Positions 41,629 through 57,065 of a stretch of DNA of 64,000 nucleotides are shown in pieces; the stretch's first letter is position 1; every line of letters starts with the position of its first letter. A model generated the notes under the pieces. The model saw only the letters and a list, made by a program, of their open reading frames with translations, had not been told where the DNA came from and searched no databases. The position numbers and the translations under genes are program-made. The stretch is from Candidatus Iainarchaeum sp. Its GTDB lineage: Archaea; Iainarchaeota; Iainarchaeia; Iainarchaeales; UBA10219. The DNA lies in contig JAGVWE010000005.1 in the NCBI GenBank assembly GCA_018304425.1, positions 62,001-126,000 on the forward strand, written 5' to 3'.

Positions 41629-42903
41629 TCAGCAGACGGCCCTGATTTTCAGCTTCCAATGCTTCATGGCCTCGCGCGCCACCGAAAGCGAGCCGCAGAC
41701 CAGGAGGAGGTCGTCTCTTCCGGCGAGTTTCTCGGCTTGCTCGATGGCGGCCGAGACCGTGGCTTCCTGCAGGGTCTGGCGGGCACGCGAAAAAGGCCGC
41801 AACTCCGCTGTTTCGGCGGCGCGCCAGCTCTTCGGTTTCGCCAGGATGAGGGTGTCGGCTTTGGGGGAAAGATAGTCCAGCATTTCCCGGAAGTCCTTGT
41901 CCCGGTAACAGCCGAACACCACGAACAACTGTTTGAAGGAAAAGAGCTTGAGGGATTGGGACAAGCGCTTCAAGCAGTCCGGGTTGTGGCCGGCGTCAAT
42001 GAGGGTCAAGGGCCGCCTTCGGCGGGAGATGACCTGCAGGCGGCAGGGCCAAAAGGTCTTTTCCAGTCCCAGGCGGATGGCGCGGTCGGAGACCGGGAAG
42101 CCGCGCTTGCGGAGGAGATAGGCCGCAGAAGCCGCGAGGGCCGCGTTCTCGACCTGGTGAAAGCCCAGCAGGGAAACCCTGAGGCCGGAAAGCTTGCAGG
42201 GATACAACAAGTCGAACGTGCTGCCCCGGTCGGTTGACTCCGCCAACTCATAGCGGGGCCGGATGACGGCCGCGTTCTTCGCGCGCGCCATCCGCTGGAT
42301 GGTGGCAAGGGCCTCGCCTTCGGCGTTCGTCACCGCCAATGAATTGAATTTGATGATGCCGGCTTTCTCGGACGCGATTTGCCGGAGGGTGTCGCCGAGG
42401 ATTTGCGTGTGCTCCAGGGAAATGTTGGTGATGACGTTGACCAGGCCGTTCAAGACATTCGTCGCGTCGAGGCGGCCGCCCAGGCCGACCTCGCACACCA
42501 GGAAATCCACTTTTTCATCCAAGAAATGCTTGAGCGCAGCGCAGGTCAGGACCTCGAAGTGCATGGGCCTTTCCTCCATCAGGTCCACGATTTTCCGGGC
42601 CCACGACATCAGGGAGGCAAACGCTTTCTTCGTGCAAGGCCGGCAGTTGACCGCGATTCGCTCGGGGTAGTCCAGCAGATGGGGACTGGTGTAGAGGCCG
42701 ACCTTGTAGCCTTCCACGCGCAGGATGCGCGCCAGCATCGAGGCCACGCTGCCCTTGCCGTTCGAGCCCGCCACGTGGATGACTTTCAAGTCAGCGAAAT
42801 CGAGTTTGGCCATGCGGAGGAAACGCTCCACGCGCTCCAGGCCCAGCTTCATCGAGAACTCGTCAAAGGAATCCAGCCAGGCCACGGCTTCCCGATAGTT
42901 CAT
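41629..42903 (-). CDS. folC: Mur ligase-family protein (FolC-like)
   Basis: This 424-residue ATP-dependent ligase resembles folylpolyglutamate/dihydrofolate synthase. It has the P-loop HVAGSNGKGSVASM at about residues 42-55, TSPHLLDYPERI, CEVGLGGRLDATN and the C-terminal IDAGHNPDCL. It would add glutamate to a folate or pterin-like substrate. The archaeal substrate may be a modified pterin or another cofactor, so the symbol is by similarity only. ATG at 42903 overlaps the pcm stop by four bases, in a minus-strand operon. Confidence 0.85.
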   Translation of the reverse strand: MNYREAVAWLDSFDEFSMKLGLERVERFLRMAKLDFADLKVIHVAGSNGKGSVASMLARILRVEGYKVGLYTSPHLLDYPERIAVNCRPCTKKAFASLMSWARKIVDLMEERPMHFEVLTCAALKHFLDEKVDFLVCEVGLGGRLDATNVLNGLVNVITNISLEHTQILGDTLRQIASEKAGIIKFNSLAVTNAEGEALATIQRMARAKNAAVIRPRYELAESTDRGSTFDLLYPCKLSGLRVSLLGFHQVENAALAASAAYLLRKRGFPVSDRAIRLGLEKTFWPCRLQVISRRRRPLTLIDAGHNPDCLKRLSQSLKLFSFKQLFVVFGCYRDKDFREMLDYLSPKADTLILAKPKSWRAAETAELRPFSRARQTLQEATVSAAIEQAEKLAGRDDLLLVCGSLSVAREAMKHWKLKIRAVC

Positions 42904-43574
42904 GCCATCCCGCCCCCGAAGCCATGCCTGCCCTTTAAGGGCACGAAAACGTAATAGTTTTCCGAGAACTCTTCTTTGAGGAGCTGGCCCCTTTTTTTGT
43001 GTAAACTGGTCAGGGTCTGGGTGTGTGCGTCCCCGACCGGCCCGACCACCCTCCCGCCGTCCGCCAACTGGTCGAACAAGGGCTTGGGGATGAAGGGGCA
43101 GGCGGCCGAGACCAGGATGCGGTCGAAGGGCGCGTGTTCCGGGAGGCCCTGGGAGCCGTCTCCCTGCACGGATTCCGCGTTCCTGCAACCCATCGCTGCC
43201 AGGTTCTTCTTGGATTGCCCGGCGAGTTCCTCCAACAACTCGACACCAAACACCTTTCCCGCTGCGCCCACGAGATGCGCGAGCAAAGCAAGGACGTAAC
43301 CACAGCCCGAGCCCACTTCCAGGACTTTCTGGCCGGGCCGCACCTGCAGCAGTTCCAGCATGGAGGCAAGGGTGGAGGGCTGGGAAATGGTTTGGCCGTG
43401 GCCAATGGGAAAGGCCGCGTCCACATAGGCTTGTTCCCGCGCGCCCACGGGAAAAAAGGCTTCGCGGGGCACGGCGAGAAAGGCTTCCCGGACTTCCCGG
43501 GAGCGGATGGCCTGGGATTGCTCCAGGAAGGCGACGAGTTGCTCGCGTTTGAGCCGGAAAACGTCTGCTGGCAT
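42900..43574 (-). CDS. pcm: Protein-L-isoaspartate O-methyltransferase
   Basis: This 224-residue SAM-dependent enzyme methylates isoaspartyl residues in aged proteins so they can be repaired. It has the family start VREAFLAVPREAFFPVG, the loop DAAFPIGHGQTISQPS, the SAM motif VLEVGSGCGYVLALLAH and DRILVSAACPFIP. Length is typical. It overlaps the FolC-like gene by four bases and follows the HTH gene by five. Confidence 0.94.
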   Translation of the reverse strand: MPADVFRLKREQLVAFLEQSQAIRSREVREAFLAVPREAFFPVGAREQAYVDAAFPIGHGQTISQPSTLASMLELLQVRPGQKVLEVGSGCGYVLALLAHLVGAAGKVFGVELLEELAGQSKKNLAAMGCRNAESVQGDGSQGLPEHAPFDRILVSAACPFIPKPLFDQLADGGRVVGPVGDAHTQTLTSLHKKRGQLLKEEFSENYYVFVPLKGRHGFGGGMA

Positions 43575-45681: not shown

Positions 45682-45754
45682 GCCTCGATAGTGCAGCGGT
45701 CAAGCACATGGGCCTTTCAAGCCCGTAACCCGGGTTCAAATCCCGGTCGGGGCA
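45682..45754 (+). tRNA. tRNA-Glu(TTC)
   Basis: Acceptor GCCTCGA/TCGGGGC, discriminator A at 45754, anticodon TTC in the loop CTTTCAA, and T-arm CCGGGTTCAAATCCCGG. The TATA ATTTATAAACC at 45657-45667 is about 20 bases upstream. No intron. Confidence 0.93.
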
Positions 45755-45837
45755 CTTTTCTAATTTGGGGGGAGATGCGAAGTCGATCGCCGAGGGCGCC
45801 GGTGTTGGTGTGATGTCGGCCGGGAAAGTACGCGTAG

Positions 45838-48213
45838 TCACCGCTGGCCCAACGCTTGTTCTTTGGCCAGGGAAAGCGTCAGGGCCCTGATGGTTTCCAC
45901 CGCGTCGATGTTGGCGGAAACCGAGTCGATGCCGTAGCCGATGAGCGTTTTCACCATTTCCGGGTTGCTGGCGGCCTGTCCGCAGATGCTGGTCTTGACT
46001 CCCGCCTTCTTACAGGCCGCGATGACGTGCTCGATTTCGCGCAGCACCGCGGGATGCATCTCGCTGAACTGTTTCTGGATGCGCTCGTTGTTGCGGTCGA
46101 TGCCCAGCGTCAACTGGGTCAAGTCGTTGGTGCCGAAGGAGATGAAGCGGATTTTTTCGGCGAGGAGCTCGTCGATGACCCAGCAGGCGGCCGGGGTTTC
46201 CACCATGACGCCGAACTCGAAGAAGGGGTCGTTCAAGTCAAAACCGCATTCCACCATCAGGGCCTTGGCCTTCCGCACTTCGTCGACGGAAATAACGAAG
46301 GGCAGCATGACGCCGATGTTCGTGTAACCTTCTTTGCGCAATTGGAAGATGGCCCGCAACTGGGCCTTGAACAATTCGGGTTCGTCGAGGTCGCGTCGGA
46401 TGCCGTGCCAGCCAATCATGGGGTTTTCCTCGTGGGGTTCTTTCTCGCCCCCGGCCAGCTCACGGAACTCGTCCGTGCGCGCGTCAAAGGTCCGATACCA
46501 TACCGGCTTGCCCTTGAAGTGGGAAGCCACTTTCCGGATGTCCTCCCGCACCACCTCAACGAGTTTCTTGGCTTCGCCGCGCCGCAGGAACTCCGCCGGG
46601 TGCTCGCCGGAAGCCGTAATCATGTGCTCGGCGCGCAGCAAGCCAACCCCGTCCGCGCCGGTTTTCTCGGCGTTCTCGGCGGCCTCGGGCAGGGCCACGT
46701 TGACCTTGACTTTGATGGCGCGCGACCGCAAGGCATTGAGTACGGCTTGCTTGCGCAGGACATCCGTTACCTGGCCTGGAAGCCGCAAGGCCTTTTCGAG
46801 GACGGGAACCTCGGCATCCGAAACCACTTCCACCGCCGCGTTTTCCTGGCTGGCCGCCTTTTTCAGGGGCGGCGTGCCGGCGTAGACCAGGCCCTTGAAG
46901 CCGTCCACCGTAATCGTCATGCCGTCCTTCAAGACCCGGGTGGCCTGTTCCGAGCCCACCACGCAGGGAATCTGGAGTTCGCGGGAAACAATGGCGGCGT
47001 GGCTGGTCCTCCCCCCCTCGTCCGTGACAATGGCCGCGCACTTTTTCATGATGGGCACCCAGCTGGGGTTGGTCATCACGGTTACGAGGACGTGGCCAGG
47101 CTGCACCTTGGCGATGTCCTTGACATCCGGCACCACGCTGACCACGCCGGACACCACGCCTGGAGAGGCCGCAAGCCCTTTAAGCAGGGGCTGCACGTCT
47201 CCCGCCACCTCCACTTTTTCCTTCAACTTGTGGAGCGTGGTAATGGCACGCGTTTGAACCAAAAACATCTTGCCGCCTTCCACGGCGAACTCCACGTCCT
47301 GGGGCTTGCCATAATGTTGTTCGAGTTTCAGGCCCAGACGCGCGACCTCCAAAATGAGTTTGTCGGAAATCTTCTGCTTTTCCCTGAGTTCGGGTTTCAG
47401 GTTGACCTGCTTGTTTCCCTTGGAGGCCCGGGCCAGCATCCAGTCCTGTTTGGCGAGTTCCTTGTGGACAATCTGCAGGCTTTCCTTGTCCACGACATAG
47501 TTGTCGGGCTTGAGGGTTCCGCCCACCACGACTTCCCCGAGGCCGAAAGCGGCTTCGACAACGATCTTGTCCAAGTCCCCGCCCGGGTCAGCCGTGAACA
47601 TGACACCTGAGGCCTCGGAGTTCACCATTTTCTGGACGACTACCGCAATCCCCACTCTTTCCGTGCCAAAGCCCTGCTTCTTGCGGTAGAAGACCGCGCG
47701 CGGCGTGAACAGCGAGGCCCAGCAGTTTTGCACGGCTTTGACCACTTCCGGCCGGCCGATGACGTTCAAATAGGTCTCCTGCTGGCCGGCAAAGCTGGCC
47801 TCGGGCAGGTCCTCGGCCGTCGCCGAACTCCGGACCGCGACATAGGGCTGCTCGCTGCTGGAGAGGTTGCCCCAACCCACCTTTTTTTGTTCGATGCGCT
47901 GGTAGGCTTTCTGGATTTCGACCCCGATTTCTTCGGGCATCCGGGCGGAGAGGATGAGTTCCCGCACCTGTTCGGTCACGGCTTCCAGGGCTGCGGTGTC
48001 ATCGACGTCCAGGGGCTCTAAGAGGGCCAGGATTTTTTGCTTGATGCCCGTGCGTTCGAGGAAATGGTAATAGGCCTGCGTGGTCACGATGAAGCCGTTG
48101 GGAATCGGGAAGCGGTTGTTGGCCATCTCGCCCAGATTCGCGCCCTTGCCGCCCACCGTGGGAATGTCGTCCTTGCCCACGTCGTCAAACCAGACAATGA
48201 ACTTCACCGGCAT
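45838..48213 (-). CDS. ppsA: Phosphoenolpyruvate synthase
   Basis: This 791-residue enzyme makes PEP from pyruvate and ATP for gluconeogenesis. It has an N-terminal ATP-grasp domain (VGGKGANLGEM, RSSATAEDLPEASFAGQQ), the phosphohistidine domain with TSHAAIVSRELQIPCVVG and a C-terminal PEP-binding barrel (ISFGTNDLTQLTLGIDR, SICGQAASNP). ATG at 48213 is preferred; GTG at 48225 is possible and would overlap pyruvate kinase's stop. It lies immediately downstream of pyruvate kinase, the enzyme catalysing the reverse direction. Length is normal. Confidence 0.94.
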   Translation of the reverse strand: MPVKFIVWFDDVGKDDIPTVGGKGANLGEMANNRFPIPNGFIVTTQAYYHFLERTGIKQKILALLEPLDVDDTAALEAVTEQVRELILSARMPEEIGVEIQKAYQRIEQKKVGWGNLSSSEQPYVAVRSSATAEDLPEASFAGQQETYLNVIGRPEVVKAVQNCWASLFTPRAVFYRKKQGFGTERVGIAVVVQKMVNSEASGVMFTADPGGDLDKIVVEAAFGLGEVVVGGTLKPDNYVVDKESLQIVHKELAKQDWMLARASKGNKQVNLKPELREKQKISDKLILEVARLGLKLEQHYGKPQDVEFAVEGGKMFLVQTRAITTLHKLKEKVEVAGDVQPLLKGLAASPGVVSGVVSVVPDVKDIAKVQPGHVLVTVMTNPSWVPIMKKCAAIVTDEGGRTSHAAIVSRELQIPCVVGSEQATRVLKDGMTITVDGFKGLVYAGTPPLKKAASQENAAVEVVSDAEVPVLEKALRLPGQVTDVLRKQAVLNALRSRAIKVKVNVALPEAAENAEKTGADGVGLLRAEHMITASGEHPAEFLRRGEAKKLVEVVREDIRKVASHFKGKPVWYRTFDARTDEFRELAGGEKEPHEENPMIGWHGIRRDLDEPELFKAQLRAIFQLRKEGYTNIGVMLPFVISVDEVRKAKALMVECGFDLNDPFFEFGVMVETPAACWVIDELLAEKIRFISFGTNDLTQLTLGIDRNNERIQKQFSEMHPAVLREIEHVIAACKKAGVKTSICGQAASNPEMVKTLIGYGIDSVSANIDAVETIRALTLSLAKEQALGQR

Positions 48214-48227
48214 GCGCTTGTTCACCC

Positions 48228-49610
48228 TTACCCGCTTCGCTCGCTTGCGTTTATGACTTCCTTGGCCCAATTGATTTGAATCATGTTGGTCGCGGGCTGC
48301 GTGGCAAACCTTCCCGCCGTGAACAACAACAAGTCGCTTCCCTCAATTAAACCTTTCGCATGCAGCCACTTGGCCACCGGGATGATCCGGTTCTTTTCCG
48401 CCTGGCCAGGGTAGTGGCAGGGCTGCACGCCATAGTAGAGCATGAGTTGCCGTTTGACGGCAGGCGAGGCCGTGACTGCCAGGATGGGCTGCTGGAGCCG
48501 ATACCTTGAAATGAGGCGGGCGGTATAGCCTGACCTCGTCATGACAATGACCTTGCTGACGTGCAGCATGGTGCAGGAGGCCGCGGCGGCCGAGGCAATG
48601 GCTTTGGACACGTTGCGGCCCGCGCCTTCGGCAAACGTGCTCTTGGCCATGTGCTCGGTGGCCCGGGCAATCGAGGCCAGGGTTTTCACGGCTTCCACGG
48701 GAAACTCGCCTTTCGCGGTTTCCCCGCTCAACATGAGGGCATCGGCCCCGTCCAGGATGGCGTTGGCTGCGTCGCTGGTCTCCGCACGGGTGGCCCGCGG
48801 CCGGTGAATCATGGACTCCAAAACCTGCGTGGCCACGATGACGAATTTCCCGGCTGCATTGCATTTGCGGATGAACTCCTTTTGCAGGAGGGGCACGCGT
48901 TCCTGGGGCAGTTCAACGCCCAAATCGCCTCTCGCCACCATGATGCCGTCGCTGGCCTCAAGGATTTTGTCGAAGTGCTTCACGCCCTGGCGGTTCTCGA
49001 TTTTGGCGATGACCTGGATGTCGGTTCCCTTGAGCGCTTTTTTCACGGCGAGGACGTCGCGCTCGGTTTGGGCGAAGGACAAGGCCACGAAGTCCACGTT
49101 GTGTTTCCGGGCAAAGGCCAGGTTCTCGTAATCCTTTTTCTGGAGGGCCGGCACGTTGAATTTCACGCCCAAGACGTTCACGCCCACGTGGTCGTAGAGT
49201 TCCCCAGCAGAGACAAACCGCAGCCTCACGGCAGTGGCCTGCTTCTCGATGATCTTGGCCTCGATGAGGCCATCGGAGAAGAACACGCTGTGGCCGACCT
49301 TGGCCTGCCGAAAAAAGTCGTGGTTGAACCAGTAGGCGTGGCCCGGGTGGAAGCCGAAGGAAAGCTCGTCCCCCTTCTTCACTTCGATGGGCGCCTTCAT
49401 GCCTGCCCTCAAATCCAGCCCCTTGGTGTCAATCAGGACCGGCACGTCGGCCACGCTTCGGACTTGCCGGATGGCCTGGCTCCATTGCCTGGGGTCCCCG
49501 TGCGCGCAGTTGATGCGCACGCAGTCCATGCCGGCGGCAGCCATTTGCCGGAGGACATTTGGCTCCAGGCAGGCCGGTCCGACCGTGCAAACAATCTTGG
49601 TTTTTTTCAT
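48228..49610 (-). CDS. pyk: Pyruvate kinase
   Basis: This 460-residue glycolytic enzyme makes ATP and pyruvate from PEP. The barrel has IVCTVGPA, IENRQGVKHFDKILEASDGIMVARGDLGVELP and ATQVLESMI followed by TRAETSDAANAILDGADALMLSGETA. Two motifs are unusual: VRINCAHGD instead of N-x-SHG, and IDTKGLDLR instead of DTKGPEIR. These sit near the active site and may alter metal or allosteric behaviour. It is followed after 14 bases by PEP synthase and preceded by a Cys-motif membrane protein with a four-base gap. Confidence 0.9.
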   Translation of the reverse strand: MKKTKIVCTVGPACLEPNVLRQMAAAGMDCVRINCAHGDPRQWSQAIRQVRSVADVPVLIDTKGLDLRAGMKAPIEVKKGDELSFGFHPGHAYWFNHDFFRQAKVGHSVFFSDGLIEAKIIEKQATAVRLRFVSAGELYDHVGVNVLGVKFNVPALQKKDYENLAFARKHNVDFVALSFAQTERDVLAVKKALKGTDIQVIAKIENRQGVKHFDKILEASDGIMVARGDLGVELPQERVPLLQKEFIRKCNAAGKFVIVATQVLESMIHRPRATRAETSDAANAILDGADALMLSGETAKGEFPVEAVKTLASIARATEHMAKSTFAEGAGRNVSKAIASAAAASCTMLHVSKVIVMTRSGYTARLISRYRLQQPILAVTASPAVKRQLMLYYGVQPCHYPGQAEKNRIIPVAKWLHAKGLIEGSDLLLFTAGRFATQPATNMIQINWAKEVINASERSG

Positions 49611-49614
49611 GGCA

Positions 49615-50439
49615 TCACTTCACGGCCTGGTCGAGCCTGGCCTCGATGGCTTGCCCGAACAGTTTCACGTAGCCGTCCGGGCTCTTGCTGGTGTCCTTGT
49701 TTTCAACGAACACCGTGAACGCGATTTCGTCCCGGCGGCAGAGCACTCTCGCGGTCTTCTGGATGACGCCTCCCTCGAACTTGATGGAAAAGCAGGTCGA
49801 GCCCAACCCCTCGTCAAAGGCTTTCGTGGTCTCATCGGTTTTCATGGTGCCCTTTTCCTTGCTGAAATAGTCTTTAGCATTGGACTTGGACTGGAACCGG
49901 ATGACCTTCACTTCAATGGCCGTGCTGCCGCCGGACTCCTCGGCCTTCTTGAGGGCCAACAGCCTTCCCTCCGCATACCCGGTTTCCCCCGAACCAAACT
50001 CCTCGTCCCTTTCAACCGAGTAATCCGAGCCATACTCGGCTTTGGCCGGCATCAAGTCGATTACTTTGGCTTCGGCCAGGGTCTTGGGCACGGGCTTGGC
50101 TTCCGGCTTCGAACCGCCTGCCGGCACAGGGGTTTCACCCGATGCAGGCTGCTGACCTTCCGTGCCCGTGGAAGGGCTTGCCACCGAACCAGGTGTTGTG
50201 GACTTGAACTGGGCCAGGCACTTCTTTTTGGCGGCCTCCGAGTAAACGCTATTGCACCAGTCCGCGTTCTTCTCGTTCCGGGCCTTCAAGGAATAGCACA
50301 CGTCCTTCAACAGGCTGCCCGGCTGGTCCTCGCATTCCTGGACCGTTTTCTTGGAGAGGCCCGGCAAGAGGTTGAAGAAACCCAACGCAATCAAGGCCAC
50401 CAGCACAACGGCCAGAACGGCAACGACCTTTAACTCCAT
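49615..50439 (-). CDS. Anchored exported protein with Cys-pair unit
   Basis: This 274-residue protein has an N-terminal membrane anchor (VVAVLAVVLVALIALGFF), then QECEDQPGSLLKDVCYSLKA followed by NEKNADWCNSVYSEAAKKKC, a Cys-pair unit like the repeats in the lipoprotein at 14655. A Pro/Gly/Thr-rich linker leads to a ~150-residue globular C-terminal domain I do not recognise (AYGEGRLLALKK-like region, IEVKVIRFQSKSNAKDYF). It is the first gene of the minus-strand unit with pyk and ppsA and diverges from the T4SS-like genes. It probably faces the outside. Function is unknown. Confidence 0.7.
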   Translation of the reverse strand: MELKVVAVLAVVLVALIALGFFNLLPGLSKKTVQECEDQPGSLLKDVCYSLKARNEKNADWCNSVYSEAAKKKCLAQFKSTTPGSVASPSTGTEGQQPASGETPVPAGGSKPEAKPVPKTLAEAKVIDLMPAKAEYGSDYSVERDEEFGSGETGYAEGRLLALKKAEESGGSTAIEVKVIRFQSKSNAKDYFSKEKGTMKTDETTKAFDEGLGSTCFSIKFEGGVIQKTARVLCRRDEIAFTVFVENKDTSKSPDGYVKLFGQAIEARLDQAVK

Positions 50440-50545
50440 GACTTTATTGGCCTTTAACGTTTTTTATGCCTATGTGCTCGCTACGGCTCGCAGCGGCTCG
50501 CAGCCAAACCCGTCGACAGATAGGTTTTTATTCGGGTTCGGCGTA

Positions 50546-50866
50546 ATGGATGGCATGGAACTCCGGAACCCACTCGCCCTGCTTGCTTTCCTGTTGCTGA
50601 ACGCGGTGGTGGTGGCGGCCGACACCAATGCCTCGGACGCGCAGTCCCTGGCCAACATCCTGGCCCCCTTGAACAAGGTCAAAAACCTGGTGCTGAGCGT
50701 TGCGGGAGTCATCGCCGTCATCTTCTTGGTCATCAACGGCGTGAAGTGGATGTTCGCGGACTCGCCACAGGCCAAGGAAGAAGCCAAGCGCGGCCTCCAA
50801 GGCGCCATCATCGGCCTGGTCATCATTGCCGCGGCCTTCCCGTTGACCGACTACCTGCTCCCCTAA
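50546..50866 (+). CDS. VirB2/TrbC-like pilin
   Basis: This 106-residue protein has an N-terminal signal (LLAFLLLNAVVVAADTN) and two membrane helices (LSVAGVIAVIFLVINGVKWM and LQGAIIGLVIIAAAFPLTDY) joined by a short charged loop, the layout of TrbC/VirB2 pilins. The middle segment is SPQAKEEAKRGLQGAIIG, which is typical of the family. ATG at 50546 is used; ATG at 50555 is possible. The TATA-like GTTTTTATTC lies just upstream, so it may be leaderless. Its neighbours are VirB6- and VirB4-like genes, so it probably is the pilus or channel subunit. Confidence 0.8.
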   Translation: MDGMELRNPLALLAFLLLNAVVVAADTNASDAQSLANILAPLNKVKNLVLSVAGVIAVIFLVINGVKWMFADSPQAKEEAKRGLQGAIIGLVIIAAAFPLTDYLLP

Positions 50867-50921
50867 TTGGGGCCCATAGCGTTAAATCCTGTTTGTGCTT
50901 CCAGTGCATGGGTTTTCGGGG

Positions 50922-52424
50922 ATGAGGCCAAGCCGGGTAGCAGCCATTCTTTTCCTGCTGGTGGGGGGCACGGTTTCCACCCAGGCACTGCCCCTGATTC
51001 CCGCGGATTGCCAGGGCTTCCCGGGAGACGTGGAAGCCTGCCAGCTGGTGCTCGACGAAAACAACCTCTCGCTGGGGGAAAAAAAGGAGTTGTTCGCCGA
51101 GCTCTGGATCGGAAACGACCTGCTGCCCAACCACGCGGCCATCCTGGAATGGGATGACAACATCCTGGTGGGCAGCCCACCGAGCGGCACCCTGCCGCAA
51201 AGCAACCTGGTCATAAAGAATGCCTGGATCCGGTTCCTCTACGTGCTGCCCGCGGTGTACGACAAAACGGACGGCCAGTGGCTGCTGCCCAAAAACATGA
51301 CGGCCAAGCTGCGGTACAACTATGGCGTGGTGGCGCCGTTTGGCACCGAGCCAGGGGATTGCCTGACGAATTACTCGGTGGCCGATGAGGACTCCTCCCT
51401 CCGCGTCACCCGGAATGGCTCCTACCTTGGTTCCAGCCTGAACCCCAGCATCCAAACCGTGCCAGGCACGAACACCCTGGCCGCGGAACTGCAAGTGGTG
51501 GCCAGCATCCTGGTCCTTCATTATGACTACCAAACCGTGTGCACGGCCCATGACCCGGTTACCGGCGCCTGCACGCAGACCGCGCAAGTGTGCCAGCAGT
51601 CCTCCAGCGAGGTCAGGGACTATTACCTCACGGTGAGCGATTCGTTCACCGGCATCCGGCAGGACTTCGATTACGCGCTGCAGTTCCGGTACGAGGACCT
51701 CAACGGCTTGCGGCAGGCCCACCTGGAATGGTCCACCACAGCTCCGATGAACGAGCTCTTGTTGGACCTGGATGGTGCCACCTATTCCCTGAGCGAGGCC
51801 GCGTATGGCGTCAAGCGGAGGCTCTCCCCGTATGACTTCCTCTACCTGGAGCGGACCCGCAAGGAAAGCAGGAAGAAATCCGGTTTGGTCGAGCTGGCCT
51901 ACGAGCGAAGGCTCTCCAGCGGCGTGTACGCCTATAACCTCACGCTGGGCCTGGACCAGAAACCCGAGCAATGCGCCCTCAGACTCCTCAGCGACTTCAA
52001 CGAATTCAATGAAAGCAGCCAATGCGTGTTCTTGGACCTGAACGCAACCGCCCTGACCCTGGCACTGGACAAGGCCGACTATGACTTCCAGGAACCCATG
52101 GCCATCCAGGTGAACCTCTCACGGCCGGGAGGCGTGCCCTTGCCGGGAAAAAACATTTCCATCAAGTACGGCGAAAAAACCGCTTACGGGATTACTAACA
52201 ACGACGGCAATGCGTCCTTTGCCATCACGGCCAGGGAGTCGTATGGGCTGGTGCAGGCCTTCTTCGAATCGGATGGCAGCTTTGCCTCGGCCAAGGCCGC
52301 AAAGCGGGCCGTGCTGCGCACGAAAGCCAACTGGGACTTGATGGTCCTCGTGACAGGCTATTTCGCGGCCAACGTTTTCATTTTCCTGCTAATCCAGCGG
52401 TATCTCGGCAAGTGGCTGGATTAG
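50922..52424 (+). CDS. Large exported protein with Ig-like region and C-terminal anchor
   Basis: This 500-residue protein has a signal peptide (VAAILFLLVGGTVSTQA), a long beta-rich ectodomain with several Cys (ADCQGF, EACQL, QTVCTAHDPVTGACTQ), an Ig/transthyretin-like unit at about residues 375-460 (LALDKADYDFQEPMAIQVNL) and a C-terminal helix (LMVLVTGYFAANVFIFLLI) with a short positive end. I do not recognise the ectodomain. It lies between the VirB2-like and VirB6-like genes on the same strand. It may be the adhesin or outer subunit of that machine, an inference from position. Confidence 0.65.
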   Translation: MRPSRVAAILFLLVGGTVSTQALPLIPADCQGFPGDVEACQLVLDENNLSLGEKKELFAELWIGNDLLPNHAAILEWDDNILVGSPPSGTLPQSNLVIKNAWIRFLYVLPAVYDKTDGQWLLPKNMTAKLRYNYGVVAPFGTEPGDCLTNYSVADEDSSLRVTRNGSYLGSSLNPSIQTVPGTNTLAAELQVVASILVLHYDYQTVCTAHDPVTGACTQTAQVCQQSSSEVRDYYLTVSDSFTGIRQDFDYALQFRYEDLNGLRQAHLEWSTTAPMNELLLDLDGATYSLSEAAYGVKRRLSPYDFLYLERTRKESRKKSGLVELAYERRLSSGVYAYNLTLGLDQKPEQCALRLLSDFNEFNESSQCVFLDLNATALTLALDKADYDFQEPMAIQVNLSRPGGVPLPGKNISIKYGEKTAYGITNNDGNASFAITARESYGLVQAFFESDGSFASAKAAKRAVLRTKANWDLMVLVTGYFAANVFIFLLIQRYLGKWLD

Positions 52425-52486
52425 GTTTTAAATCACCTTTATAGAATGGAATTATATAATGGAATTCGCATAATTGGGTGGGTTTT

Positions 52487-53416
52487 ATGGGGCACAGAAC
52501 CTTGGCCGTCCTGGTTTTCCTCCTGCTCTTGTCGCAGGCCTCCGCCCAGTTTGTGGAAGAAATCCGGGACATCCCGCAGGGCACGGCCGATGCGATCGTC
52601 GCCAAGCAAAAACAGGAGCTGGTCCTGTTCATCAACCCGTTCCTGAGCGCGATAAAGACGTTCATCCTCTCCAACCCCAATCCCTTGGACCTGTTCGACC
52701 ACTGGAAGCTGATTGTCTCCGTAATTTCGGCCTTCTACATCCTGTTGTTCCTGGTGGCGGGGTTGAAGTTCGTGCTCGGTGCCTATGACGTTGGCCAACG
52801 CGAGGAGGCAAAGGTCTGGTTCAAGAACGCCTTGTTCCTGGTCATCGTCTTGAACGCCTCGTACCTGCTTTACTCCATCCTCCTGGACCTGGGCTCCGGG
52901 GTTTCCCTGGTGTTCTGGGACGCCAAGTTCGAGAGCCTCTTCAGCTTTGAAGCCATCGAGTCCCTGAACCTGTTCAGCCTCTACTACTTGGCGTTCAGTT
53001 CCTCGCTTTTGTGGTTCACGCTGTTCATGCGGTATGCCCTGCTGCTCATCGGCGTGGTCATTTTCCCGCTGGGCTTGTTCCTGTTCTTCATCCCGCCCAT
53101 GAAAACCTATGGTTCCGCCATCCTGAACATCTTCGGCTCCGCGGTCTTCATCCAGCTCATCGACACGATCACCCTGAAGGTCATGGACCTGACCCTGGCC
53201 GGGCTCTCCAGCCCGGACTTCAAGTTCCTCATCCCGAGCACGGCCTACTTCATCATCTTCTCCATCAACCTGGCCATCCTCTTGATTGCGGCGTTGCGCG
53301 GCGTGCACTCCGTCAAGGCGTACTCGCCGAACATCGCGAACGTCGTCAGCTACATCACCCCGCCGAGCTCCTACCTGAGCCCCGTGGAAAAGCCCCTGAG
53401 CTACGCCAAGGAGTAA
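52487..53416 (+). CDS. VirB6/TrbL-like membrane protein
   Basis: This 309-residue protein has a signal-like N-terminus and about six membrane helices with a central aromatic stretch (MRYALLLIGVVIFPLGLFLFF). VirB6/TrbL proteins form the inner-membrane channel of type IV secretion systems and have this size and layout, but sequence similarity between them is always weak. ATG at 52487 lies about 30 bases after a TATA ATTATATAATGG, so leaderless expression is likely; GTG at 52478 is possible. It ends six bases before the VirB4-like gene. Confidence 0.7.
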   Translation: MGHRTLAVLVFLLLLSQASAQFVEEIRDIPQGTADAIVAKQKQELVLFINPFLSAIKTFILSNPNPLDLFDHWKLIVSVISAFYILLFLVAGLKFVLGAYDVGQREEAKVWFKNALFLVIVLNASYLLYSILLDLGSGVSLVFWDAKFESLFSFEAIESLNLFSLYYLAFSSSLLWFTLFMRYALLLIGVVIFPLGLFLFFIPPMKTYGSAILNIFGSAVFIQLIDTITLKVMDLTLAGLSSPDFKFLIPSTAYFIIFSINLAILLIAALRGVHSVKAYSPNIANVVSYITPPSSYLSPVEKPLSYAKE

Positions 53417-53422
53417 CGCTTC

Positions 53423-56077
53423 ATGCCTGCCTATGAAATCCCGCAGAACCTCAAATATGAGGAAAAAATAATCGCGAACCTGAGCTTTGCCCAGTTGTTC
53501 TGGATTGCCTTGTTCTTCGGCACTGCCGCCTTCATCTTCCTCAGCGAGGGCATTGACTGGGGCTTCGAGGCCGAAATCGTCATCGGCAGCCTGCTGATGT
53601 TCATGGGCCTGGGCTTCGCCTTCTTCGACTTCATGGGCTACCTCCAGGCATTCTACACCTACGCCAAATCCGTTCACGAGACCAAGGGCAGCGAGGAAGA
53701 CAAGGCCCGGAAGCTCGAGAAGTTCATGGAAGTGGACCGGATTGAGGCGGACACGATTTACCTCAAGGACGGCAGCATGCGCGCCCTCCTCCAGGTGCTG
53801 CCCCTCAACTTCACGATTCTCTCGGAAATCGAGCAAGTGGCCATCATCTCGGCCTACAAGGCCTTCCTGAACTCCCTGGACTTCCCCGTGCAAATCGTGA
53901 TGCGGACCGTGAAAATGAACCTCGAAGACTACTTGTACAACCTCAAGAAGGGAGTGGAAGAACACGAGAACGACCAGCTGCTGGAACGGTTCTACTCCTT
54001 CCGCGGCTTCGTCCAGCAATTCATCGAGAAAAACAACGTCAAGAACCGCTTGTTCTACGTCGTGGTTCCATTCGATTCCCTTGCTTCCACGCCCCCCATC
54101 GACCGCCTGCTGGGCGGCAAGGACCGGGCAGGCAAAGGCGAAGAGGAAAAGGCGCTCAACAAGGAACACGCCGTCAACCAGCTGGACGCCCGGGTCAAGC
54201 TCTGCCAGGAAAAACTCCGCAAATGCGGCTTGACCGTGAAAAGACTCGCCACCGAGGAAATCAACCAGCTGCTGTCCAGTTACTTCGAGGACACGGGCAA
54301 GCGCAAGCGCGCGGACTGGCTCAAGCCCACCTACTTGAAAAACGAGTTCAACCGCATCCAAGTCAACGAGGAATTCAACCGAGTGGTGGCGGCCCACGCC
54401 TACCCCCGGCTGGTGCGGGAAGGCTGGCTGAACCCCATCATCCTCGCGGAAGGCAACTTCGACCTCGTCATGTACGTTACTCCCACGCCCCTGGAATACG
54501 TGTTGTCCAACCTCAACCGGGAACTCATCAAGCAGGAGTCCGACATGCTGGCAGCCGAGTCCAAGGGCCTGGTCAACCCCCTCCTCAAAGTCCAGTACAA
54601 CGACACCTACCGCACCCTGGAAAAGCTGCAGAAAGGCGAGGAAAAACTGTTCGACCTGGCCCTCTACGTGAACGTGAAGGCCAAGGGCAAACGCGAACTC
54701 GACCTGTTGACGCGCCGCATCACCGCGGACCTGAACTCCATCCTCGTCATCCCCCGCGTGCCCCTCATGAAGATGCAGCAGGCCATGCAGTCCATTTACC
54801 CCGTGTTCAGCGACAAGCTGCGCGTGAACCGCAACATCCCCAGCAACGCGCTCTCGGCCTGCTTCCCGTTCACGAGCAGCTTCCTCAACTTCGACGAAAC
54901 CGGCGTCATGTTCGCGGTCAACAAGGAAAACAAGGTGCCCATCATCCTGGACGTGTACAAGTTCGTGAACTACAACGGGCTCGTGCTCGGCACCTCGGGC
55001 GGGGGAAAGAGCTTTGCCGTCAAACTCTACATCCTGAGGAACTTCCTGAAAGGCATCAAGACCATGGTCATCGACCCCCAAGGGGAATACTCGGAGCTCA
55101 TCGGGGATTTGGGAGGGCAACTCGTCGAAATCAGCCGGGAAAGCGAGACCATCATCAACCCCTTCGACCTGATGGGCGGCGACTTCGGGGAGAAAACGCT
55201 TTCCCTGATGGACCTGTTCCGCCTCATGCTCGGCGAGCTCACCGAAGAACAGAAGAACCTCCTGGACAAGGCCGTGCTCTCGATTTACGAGGAAAAAGGC
55301 ATCATCCCCAACGACAAGGCCACGTGGTCGAAGACCCCGCCCACCCTCGGAGACCTGCACGCGTTCATCCAGCGGCACAAAAAGCACGCGGAACACAACG
55401 AGTTACGCGATTTGATTACCCTGGAGAACCGGGTGCGGCTGTACACGGAGGGCGCGTTCAGCTTCATGAACCGGCAGACCAAGCTGGACTTCGCGAGCGC
55501 GAACATCTCCTTCAACATCGAGAAGATGCCCAAGCAGGTCAAGCCCATCATGATGTTCCTCATCCTGGAATTCGTCGTCAACAAGATGCGCGAGGACAAG
55601 AGCCGGAAGCTGCTGGTCGTGGACGAGGCCTGGAGCCTCCTCCGACACGGCGAGCAAGCCGATTACCTGTTCGAGCTCATCAAGACCTCGAGGAAATACG
55701 CGTTGGGCATCGTCATCATCACGCAAGAGGTCACCGACCTGCTGGCCACCGAGGCAGGCAACACGATTCTGGCGAACACCTCTTGGAAGATACTGTTACG
55801 GCAGGAGCCTGCCGTCATCAAGACCCTGGCCGACAAGTTCAACCTGAACATCGAAGAAGAAAACTACCTGCTCACGGCGGACATCGGGGAAGGCCTGTTG
55901 TTCGCCATGAACGAGCACATCCCCATCAAAGTCATCGCCTCGGAAGAAGAACACGAACTCATCACGACCAACCCCGACGAGCTGGAGGCCCGGAAAAAGG
56001 CCCGCATGAACTGGGCCACCGGGAAAAAAGAGGGCCCCCTCCAGAAGGTCACGGGCAAGCACTGGGCAAAGGCCTGA
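53423..56077 (+). CDS. PrgI/VirB3-VirB4 fusion-type ATPase
   Basis: This 884-residue protein begins with about 75 residues containing two membrane helices (LFWIALFFGTAAFIFLS, IGSLLMFMGLGFAFFDF), like PrgI or VirB3, and continues as a VirB4-type AAA-like ATPase. Walker A GTSGGGKS is at residues 523-530, and Walker B LLVVDEAW has its Asp/Glu at 734-735. Later blocks include GIVIITQEVTDLL and ILANTSWKILLRQEP. VirB4 energises assembly of the type IV secretion pilus and channel. A HerA-like relative cannot be excluded, but the N-terminal helices and neighbours favour VirB4. No relaxase or VirD4 is nearby. Confidence 0.88.
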   Translation: MPAYEIPQNLKYEEKIIANLSFAQLFWIALFFGTAAFIFLSEGIDWGFEAEIVIGSLLMFMGLGFAFFDFMGYLQAFYTYAKSVHETKGSEEDKARKLEKFMEVDRIEADTIYLKDGSMRALLQVLPLNFTILSEIEQVAIISAYKAFLNSLDFPVQIVMRTVKMNLEDYLYNLKKGVEEHENDQLLERFYSFRGFVQQFIEKNNVKNRLFYVVVPFDSLASTPPIDRLLGGKDRAGKGEEEKALNKEHAVNQLDARVKLCQEKLRKCGLTVKRLATEEINQLLSSYFEDTGKRKRADWLKPTYLKNEFNRIQVNEEFNRVVAAHAYPRLVREGWLNPIILAEGNFDLVMYVTPTPLEYVLSNLNRELIKQESDMLAAESKGLVNPLLKVQYNDTYRTLEKLQKGEEKLFDLALYVNVKAKGKRELDLLTRRITADLNSILVIPRVPLMKMQQAMQSIYPVFSDKLRVNRNIPSNALSACFPFTSSFLNFDETGVMFAVNKENKVPIILDVYKFVNYNGLVLGTSGGGKSFAVKLYILRNFLKGIKTMVIDPQGEYSELIGDLGGQLVEISRESETIINPFDLMGGDFGEKTLSLMDLFRLMLGELTEEQKNLLDKAVLSIYEEKGIIPNDKATWSKTPPTLGDLHAFIQRHKKHAEHNELRDLITLENRVRLYTEGAFSFMNRQTKLDFASANISFNIEKMPKQVKPIMMFLILEFVVNKMREDKSRKLLVVDEAWSLLRHGEQADYLFELIKTSRKYALGIVIITQEVTDLLATEAGNTILANTSWKILLRQEPAVIKTLADKFNLNIEEENYLLTADIGEGLLFAMNEHIPIKVIASEEEHELITTNPDELEARKKARMNWATGKKEGPLQKVTGKHWAKA

Positions 56078-56138
56078 ACCCCAACCGCACCGGAAATGTG
56101 GTCTACTTTCGTTTTTAAACCCCTCAAAGAGTAGTCAT

Positions 56139-56291
56139 ATGGCTAGCTCCTTGCAAAAAAACAATTCCCACCCTGATGGGGGCGAGAAAAAAAAGCTGCC
56201 TGATGAGCAGCAGTGGGCTAACTGCCCTTCCCGGGTTCGCCCGTCCTGGCCGGGCCAGGGAATCCCGACCCCACCGCGTAGCCCCGCTTAA
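56139..56291 (+). other. Candidate structured RNA or 50-codon leaderless ORF
   Basis: An ATG at 56139 lies about 25 bases after TTTTTAAAC, a TATA box, and opens a 50-codon frame starting MASSLQKNNSHPDGGEKKK. The composition is not convincing for a protein. The same bases contain several hairpins: GCTGC/GCAGC (56195-56211), CCTGGC/GCCAGG (56245-56259) and smaller ones, in a GC-rich block. A small structured RNA is at least as likely. It matches no RNA family known to me. Confidence 0.35.
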
Positions 56292-56354
56292 GCGCCTTTA
56301 AAAACCTTTACGTCGTATGGTGCGTATTATTCTGCCTTATTCGAGGGAATTGGA

Positions 56355-57065
56355 TTGGATTGGAGGAAGATTTTCACGCCCCAGGGGCTGCTGTTCACCG
56401 TGCTCTTCCTAGCTATGGTCATGGCCTCCAACCAGCTGAATTTTTCGTCCCTGCTTGGCAAACCCAACCAGTTTTTCACGTTCTTCCAGTTCATCGGGCC
56501 CCTGGCCGGCGGCTTCCTCGGCCCCATTGCTGGTGCCCTGCTCGTGTTCGCCGCGCAACTGGTGGATGCCTTCCTCCACGGCAAGGCCCTCGACCTTTCC
56601 ACTATTGGCTGGCTGCTGCCCATGGTCTTCGCCAGCATCTACTTCGGCAGCAGGCGGAATTCCTCGAGCCGCATCATCTCGTTTGCGGCCATCCTCCTGT
56701 TCCTCCTGCACCCGGTGGGGCGAACGGCCTGGTTTTACTCGCTGTACTGGTTCATCCCCGTGCTGTGCTGGCTGTTCCGCAAGCACTTGTTCGCCCGCAG
56801 TCTGGGCGCAACCTTCACCGCGCACGCCATCGGCGGCGCGCTCTGGGTGTGGACCGTGCCCATGACCACCGAGCAATGGATGGCACTCATCCCCATCGTG
56901 GCCTACGAGCGGCTGTTGTTCGCGGCCGGCATCAGCGTTTCCTACATCGCGTTGAACACCCTGTTAAGCAAGGCGGCCTCGCTGCTGCCCTACGACCTCG
57001 TCGAAGTCAACCCAAAATACGTTTTGTCGAGAGAAATGCTGGGCAAAACATTCGGCATGGGATAA
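56355..57065 (+). CDS. ECF S-component-like membrane protein (third copy type)
   Basis: This 236-residue protein has about six membrane helices and the general layout of an ECF S component or related transport protein (FFQFIGPLAGGFLGPIAGALLVF). It does not share the motifs of the pair at 9071 and 10085. The only good start is TTG at 56355; a TATA-like GTATTATTC lies about 25 bases before it. The substrate is unknown. It stands alone. Confidence 0.65.
   Translation: MDWRKIFTPQGLLFTVLFLAMVMASNQLNFSSLLGKPNQFFTFFQFIGPLAGGFLGPIAGALLVFAAQLVDAFLHGKALDLSTIGWLLPMVFASIYFGSRRNSSSRIISFAAILLFLLHPVGRTAWFYSLYWFIPVLCWLFRKHLFARSLGATFTAHAIGGALWVWTVPMTTEQWMALIPIVAYERLLFAAGISVSYIALNTLLSKAASLLPYDLVEVNPKYVLSREMLGKTFGMG

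Follow-up and report, generated by a model that had tools for sequence, protein, structure and literature searches.

A type IV secretion operon of probable mobile-element origin in the chromosome of a Diapherotrites-order archaeon

The 64-kb stretch of DNA analysed here (the window) belongs to an uncultured DPANN archaeon of the Diapherotrites order, and its contig bears archaeal rRNA. Four open reading frames lie on the forward strand at 50546-50866, 50895-52424, 52478-53416 and 53423-56077, with intergenic gaps of 28, 53 and 6 bp in gene order, which agrees with the one-directional block described in the original prediction. The surroundings of this operon are made up of core genes, namely FtsZ, FEN1, UbiA, pyruvate kinase, PEP synthase and the 16S and 23S rRNA genes. 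The gene identities first proposed (a VirB2-like pilin, an Ig-like surface protein, a VirB6-like channel and a PrgI/VirB3-VirB4 fusion ATPase of a type IV secretion system, T4SS) were upheld by Pfam, NCBIfam and models, and in the case of VirB6 more indirectly by the operon slot, TM segments and profiles. An antisense ORF of 985 aa, considered in place of VirB6 and VirB4, was ruled out by homology and codon use. The RNA fold downstream of the VirB4 gene was no better than that of shuffled sequences.

The first gene (50546-50866, +) codes for a 106-aa pilin with signal and TM segments. It matches PF18895 (T4SS_pilin, 4.3e-15) and PF04956 (TrbC/VirB2, 2.7e-9), both above the Pfam cut-off, and was classified as VirB2-like on these grounds. 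It also matches a pilin-like NCBIfam family of mycoplasma ICEs at 3e-8, below the curated cut-off. In DPANN loci the operon opens with a pilin gene, and this position is conserved. On the opposite strand, a divergent gene adjoining the pilin (49615-50439, -) codes for a secreted or membrane-anchored protein without a Pfam family. The second gene of the operon (50895-52424, +) codes for a secreted Ig-like ectodomain of 509 aa, with an N-terminal signal segment and a C-terminal TM helix. The Pfam match of the window protein is weak; its relatives match Big_1 at 6e-4. The AlphaFold model (pLDDT 84) consists of beta structure apart from a single TM helix at the C terminus, and a Foldseek search with it returned adhesin and macroglobulin-type beta-sandwiches at a low TM-score. 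In relatives, this family is kept between the pilin and VirB6, and its Cys pattern is invariant there. The third gene (52478-53416, +) codes for a polytopic membrane protein of 312 aa that has no direct match in Pfam or NCBIfam. We call it VirB6/CedA-like because of its operon slot, its ~6 TM segments, the conservation of a family in the same operon position and the mutual profile matches of that family with the pilin family. A relation of this kind has been published between CedA and CedA1 and between VirB6 and VirB2 (PMC9905601).

The fourth gene (53423-56077, +) codes for the 884-aa PrgI(VirB3)::VirB4 fusion ATPase, with matches to PF12666, PF19044 and PF01935. Its N-terminal membrane part (residues 1-75; 53423-53647, +) contains TM segments and is PrgI/VirB3-like, with a PF12666 match of 5.7e-4 over residues 6-73; in a relative, the same profile matches at 2e-7. 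The VirB4 part matches PF19044 at 3e-25 and the HerA-like PF01935 at 4e-13. The ATPase domain (residues 491-848; 54893-55966, +) was delimited by a phmmer match to 4ag5, a VirB4-type ATPase and the closest solved structure (5e-33). Both ATPase motifs are intact, with Walker A (GTSGGGKS) at residue 523 and Walker B (LLVVDE) at residue 730, as a VirB4 ATPase should have. Among NCBIfam profiles, that of the clostridial CD1110 family scored best (4e-85), followed by the mycoplasma-ICE VirB4 (4e-83), both below curated cut-offs. The N-terminal half matches TrsD (NF041427, 1.4e-6), which has been described as a remote homologue of the VirB4 N-terminus (PMC12102498). No VirB8/VirB10-type scaffold was found among the four genes of the block with Pfam and NCBIfam. 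Monoderm and archaeal systems do not all have such a scaffold.

The position of the operon in the chromosome was examined by tblastn synteny and a tRNA scan. The backbone common to the window and the relatives G026 and G033 consists of FEN1, a Mur-ligase-like gene, an HTH gene, UbiA, tRNA-Glu, an ECF-like gene, UbiA and 16S. The tRNA-Glu(TTC) gene (45682-45755, +; ARAGORN), which also occurs in the empty arrangement of locus L170 and in L171, forms the left edge of a lineage-specific slot of 10.6 kb (45756-56354) that holds ppsA, pyk, the secreted protein and the T4SS. The right edge is an ECF-transporter-like membrane protein (56355-57065, +) of the conserved chromosomal backbone upstream of the 16S rRNA. 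The edges are 0.7 kb apart in G026 and 2.4 kb apart in G033, against 10.6 kb in the window. This comparison places the T4SS, pyk and ppsA in a variable slot 3' of tRNA-Glu. The slot of G026 is empty, and its own T4SS sits elsewhere, beside an integrase. In G013 most of the backbone is present but not the tRNA, and other genes occupy the slot position. The housekeeping flanks of the original prediction thus hold for the chromosomal surroundings at large, but pyk and ppsA, the genes on the left, are part of the variable slot that also contains the T4SS. The order and strand of the tRNA followed by the T4SS are the same as in integrase-bearing relatives. Since tRNA genes are frequent, tRNA proximity alone was not counted as evidence for the window; the synteny comparison was. 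Two side observations concern this region. The PEP synthase and pyruvate kinase genes form a pair in the slot (45838-49610, -), and pyruvate kinase is patchy in relatives. The Mur-ligase-like gene (41629-43188, -; PF08245, PF02875) is found here in an archaeon, and its synteny with FEN1 and UbiA is kept in relatives.

Genes for mobility were searched for at several scales. The prediction of no relaxase or VirD4 was borne out, for the profiles searched, beyond the neighbourhood of the operon: a VirD4-type coupling protein (PF02534) was found neither in the window's genome nor in 12 relatives, with positive controls, and a relaxase (PF03432) neither in that genome nor in 17 others, with a positive L. 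lactis control. The genome assembly of 1.48 Mb, which contains one VirB4, is 92.6% complete, and ~7% may be missing. The four-gene operon contains no DNA-processing gene. None of the integrase, restriction-modification, ArdC and reverse-transcriptase families of the relatives occurs within the 64-kb window, and there is no integrase along the 217-kb contig. No att repeat was found around tRNA-Glu, where the longest repeat in the window is 11 nt and shuffled sequences reach 13-14 nt. The relatives' loci yielded no att repeats either, so such repeats do not mark the borders of an element, which counts against the element-derived reading favoured below.

When GTDB species genomes were scanned with the VirB4 alignment as query, members of the family turned up in Diapherotrites, Woese-, Pace-, Nano-, Micr- and Altiarchaeota (31-61% identity); outside DPANN the identity drops to 22-30%. 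Viral contigs gave no match to the same alignment. The gene order pilin-(Ig)-VirB6-VirB3::VirB4, which had been proposed as a check in related genomes, is kept in 57 further DPANN loci and in 12 Diapherotrites genomes, two sets that share some records. In Woese-, Pace- and Nanoarchaeota, VirB3::VirB4 is mostly a single protein of ~1000 aa. Most Diapherotrites have two ORFs, VirB3-VirB4N (~300 aa) and VirB4C (~750 aa), and the split falls at about residues 291-297 of the window protein (54293-54313, +). Several loci depart from these arrangements. In G048 (L038, 8656-9804), the reading frame of VirB3-VirB4N runs on into a TrmB-type helix-turn-helix domain and not into VirB4C; no VirB4C was found in that genome, and the copy is rearranged or broken. 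G023 (L034, 9712-11022) has a 436-aa gene without a Pfam match between the two VirB4 halves. One Pacearchaeota contig carries three copies of the T4SS operon (L091, L108 and L129) and another single contig carries two (L104 and L106), in both cases with differing restriction-modification cargo. A contig labelled as a Babeliales bacterium (L115) has a DPANN-type VirB4 (50% identity) and is probably mis-binned. The DPANN T4SS family is previously little-noticed. In open-licence full texts we found no published description of it, or of a VirB4 with the nuclease-like domain described below; as the search covered open-licence papers only, this is weak evidence of novelty.

The surroundings of the homologous operons differ from those in the window. 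A tyrosine integrase family was found in 12 of the 57 further DPANN loci, and in 11 loci it lies 1-4 kb upstream of the operon. The matches were distributed as 12 upstream against 1 downstream (binomial p 9e-5 given the flank lengths), with more downstream than upstream DNA available. In seven loci the integrase adjoins a tRNA gene. In Diapherotrites, an integrase of ~400 aa lies 1-14 kb upstream of the pilin in five T4SS loci, one of which also has ArdC. A small N6/N4 DNA methyltransferase occurs in 18 loci (17 matches upstream vs 2 downstream), mostly 0.25-0.7 kb upstream, and HsdR/HsdS are mostly downstream of the operon. Restriction-modification genes are frequent, and the methyltransferase and HsdM counts are not independent because the searches overlap. 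Reverse-transcriptase-like genes were observed near the T4SS in L084, L087, L094 and L115, in three cases 35-101 bp downstream of VirB4. The upstream integrases, the tRNA genes and the restriction-modification genes around homologous operons indicate that the family is, at its root, an integrative-element machine. The suggestion that the block is simply a stable machine of the chromosome, with no ties to mobile elements, finds no support in these surroundings. Mobile-element genes nearby and absence of the block from most relatives had been named in advance as signs of a conjugative element remnant. The first was seen beside the relatives' blocks, with no integrase on the contig of the window; the second did turn up, as the block is present in 14 of 87 genomes of the Diapherotrites phylum, and it is present and absent within single genera.

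In 50 loci, the VirB4 of relatives extends into a C-terminal domain of ~160 aa with invariant D84 and E97 and with E99 in at least 90%. The domain has no Pfam match, and a MOBC relaxase, considered as its identity, thus gained no support from Pfam. Its AlphaFold model (pLDDT 95) has an alpha-beta core in the PD-(D/E)xK core order. A Foldseek search returned Hjc (Holliday-junction resolvases) and Cdn1 with probabilities of 0.97-1.00 and E values of 2e-3 to 4e-3. Judged by the modelled fold and the D...ExE pattern, the domain is PD-(D/E)xK nuclease-like. The window VirB4 stops before this domain, and no copy was found elsewhere in the genome or in the six frames of the window. It is also absent or degraded in some relatives from the 16S sister family (f16) and in one altiarchaeal locus.

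The closest known systems are those of the MPF_FATA type (CD1110, mycoplasma ICE Mbov_0395/0397, pGO1 Trs), with which the VirB4 and pilin of the window score best and which share the set of PrgI/VirB3, VirB6 and VirB4. Unlike them, the window has no detected relaxase or coupling protein, its VirB3 is fused to VirB4 and an Ig ectodomain is present; the VirB4 of relatives differs further by its nuclease-like domain, and all the profile matches are below curated cut-offs. The Ced/Ted systems for DNA import in Crenarchaeota have the same minimal, chromosomal and relaxase-free set of VirB2, VirB6 and VirB4 and a similar profile relation between pilin and VirB6, and the separate VirB4 N-half of relatives recalls the CedB/CedD split (PMC9905601, PMC11868833). 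However, the window VirB4 matches CedB at 5.6e-12 and CedD at 5.7e-12, far below cut-offs, as against 4e-85 for CD1110, and by these scores it is not classed as a CedB/CedD member. Also in contrast to Ced/Ted, the window has a VirB3 part and no HerA or Rad50 neighbours. VirB3 homologues have been stated to be absent in archaea (PMC11868833). The T4SS of Patescibacteria (CPR), according to its published description, is likewise relaxase-free and chromosomal, with PF18895 pilins, PrgI, VirB6 and VirB4, but no VirB3-VirB4 fusions were found there, a nuclease-like domain is unmentioned, and the system is very widespread in CPR, whereas the DPANN family is patchy (PMC12102498). Within DPANN, Ig repeats also occur together with a VirB4/TraG ATPase in the SPEARE-type proteins of nanohaloarchaea (PMC10266531); there they form one giant protein, whereas the window has separate genes, with a pilin and VirB6.

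The T4SS of the window is probably derived from a mobile element; it is also probably retained and working. The explanation that we favour, if by no great measure, starts from a DPANN conjugative element that became fixed and was stripped down; what is left probably still moves DNA in a Ced/Ted-like manner or serves cell contact. The machine would be a minimal T4SS of the Gram-positive/archaeal, MPF_FATA-like kind, descended from a family of integrative elements that target tRNA genes and are spread across DPANN. An ancestral element would have entered the tRNA-Glu slot; its integrase, cargo and VirB4 nuclease domain would then have been stripped. The host presumably kept the remaining pilin, Ig ectodomain, VirB6 and VirB3::VirB4 and expresses them.

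A possible but less probable use is that of a contact-dependent partner machine, in which proteins would be delivered, or material taken up from a host cell, by way of the pilus and channel. The organism is a DPANN archaeon, the Ig ectodomain conserved in the operon looks adhesin-like, and a VirB4 that has lost the nuclease-like domain would suit a shift away from DNA. Precedents are the nanohaloarchaeal giant proteins joining Ig and VirB4 (PMC10266531) and the T4SS of Saccharibacteria, which is relaxase-free and coupling-protein-free and is essential for epibiotic growth (PMC10633639). However, the operon contains no effector gene, homologous machines are found on integrative elements, for which DNA is the natural cargo, and with only 14 of 87 genomes carrying the block, the T4SS is no general requirement of the Diapherotrites lifestyle. 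DNA is the likelier substrate by analogy, since integrative elements are the home of the family and Ced/Ted use the same minimal set.

That the block is a dead or dying conjugative-element remnant, from which integrase and nuclease domain are gone and the rest is not yet deleted, appears improbable. Integrase, cargo, nuclease-like domain, coupling protein (PF02534) and relaxase (PF03432) are indeed missing, the copies in G048 and G027 are visibly broken or rearranged, and the VirB4 branch of the window is longer than those of nuclease-bearing relatives, which shows changed constraint. Against this, the window's four T4SS genes are all intact and form a compact operon. With codon scoring trained on neighbourhood genes, the T4SS genes left out, the pilin, VirB6 and VirB4 genes score 0.38-0.41, compared with a maximum of 0.32 among 32 other genes; the codon adaptation of these T4SS genes is the strongest among the genes of the window. 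Such host-like codon use argues for long residence and expression and, together with the intact genes and kept ATPase motifs, against a dying remnant.

In the VirB4 tree, clades mostly track DPANN phyla, with the DPANN clade well apart from the Firmicutes rows, and the GC of T4SS genes follows the host. The T4SS sequences reject a grouping of the window with f16 (p_AU 1.5e-6), where the host tree is based on 16S only with moderate support (88/97) and the long T4SS branches of the window and f16 could disturb the trees. An ancient, vertically inherited chromosomal pilus machine, never mobile in this lineage and borrowed by elements elsewhere, would suit the clades and the GC but is very unlikely given the patchiness within genera, the discordance with 16S, the lineage-specific slot and the stereotyped integrase position in relatives.

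For a stripped conjugative element kept by its host, the following mode of action can be proposed. The Ig ectodomain may make contact with a partner cell or with the surface layer of its own cell. Anchored by the fused VirB3 part, the VirB4 ring would pull VirB2-like pilins out of the membrane, and these would be assembled as a pilus, either on the VirB6 channel or through it. VirB4 would then push a polymer through this channel, and single-stranded DNA is the most likely one. As neither a relaxase nor a coupling protein was found, preparing the DNA would fall to nucleases and helicases of the cell, which is also what has been proposed for DNA exchange by Ced and Ted. Among relatives, the nuclease-like domain fused to VirB4 is a candidate for this preparation.

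DPANN archaea are mostly uncultured. A small, delimited machine consisting of a motor, a channel, a pilin and a surface protein makes two questions about them testable, how they exchange genes and how they handle partner cells. A bolder and less probable reading is that DPANN archaea have a lineage of integrative conjugative elements of their own, which dispense with relaxase and coupling protein and transfer DNA by a VirB4 motor with a built-in PD-(D/E)xK nuclease, and that the window contains a nuclease-free cellular descendant domesticated independently of Ced/Ted. If transferred DNA is processed without a relaxase, the nuclease-like domain of relatives is a concrete candidate for the task. 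The window T4SS seems to be kept by the cell without mobility genes and may serve the cell itself, for example in exchanging DNA or in contacts with a partner. Lacking mobility genes and the nuclease domain, this copy would be another conjugation machine captured by its host, beside Ced and Ted, which are those described so far.
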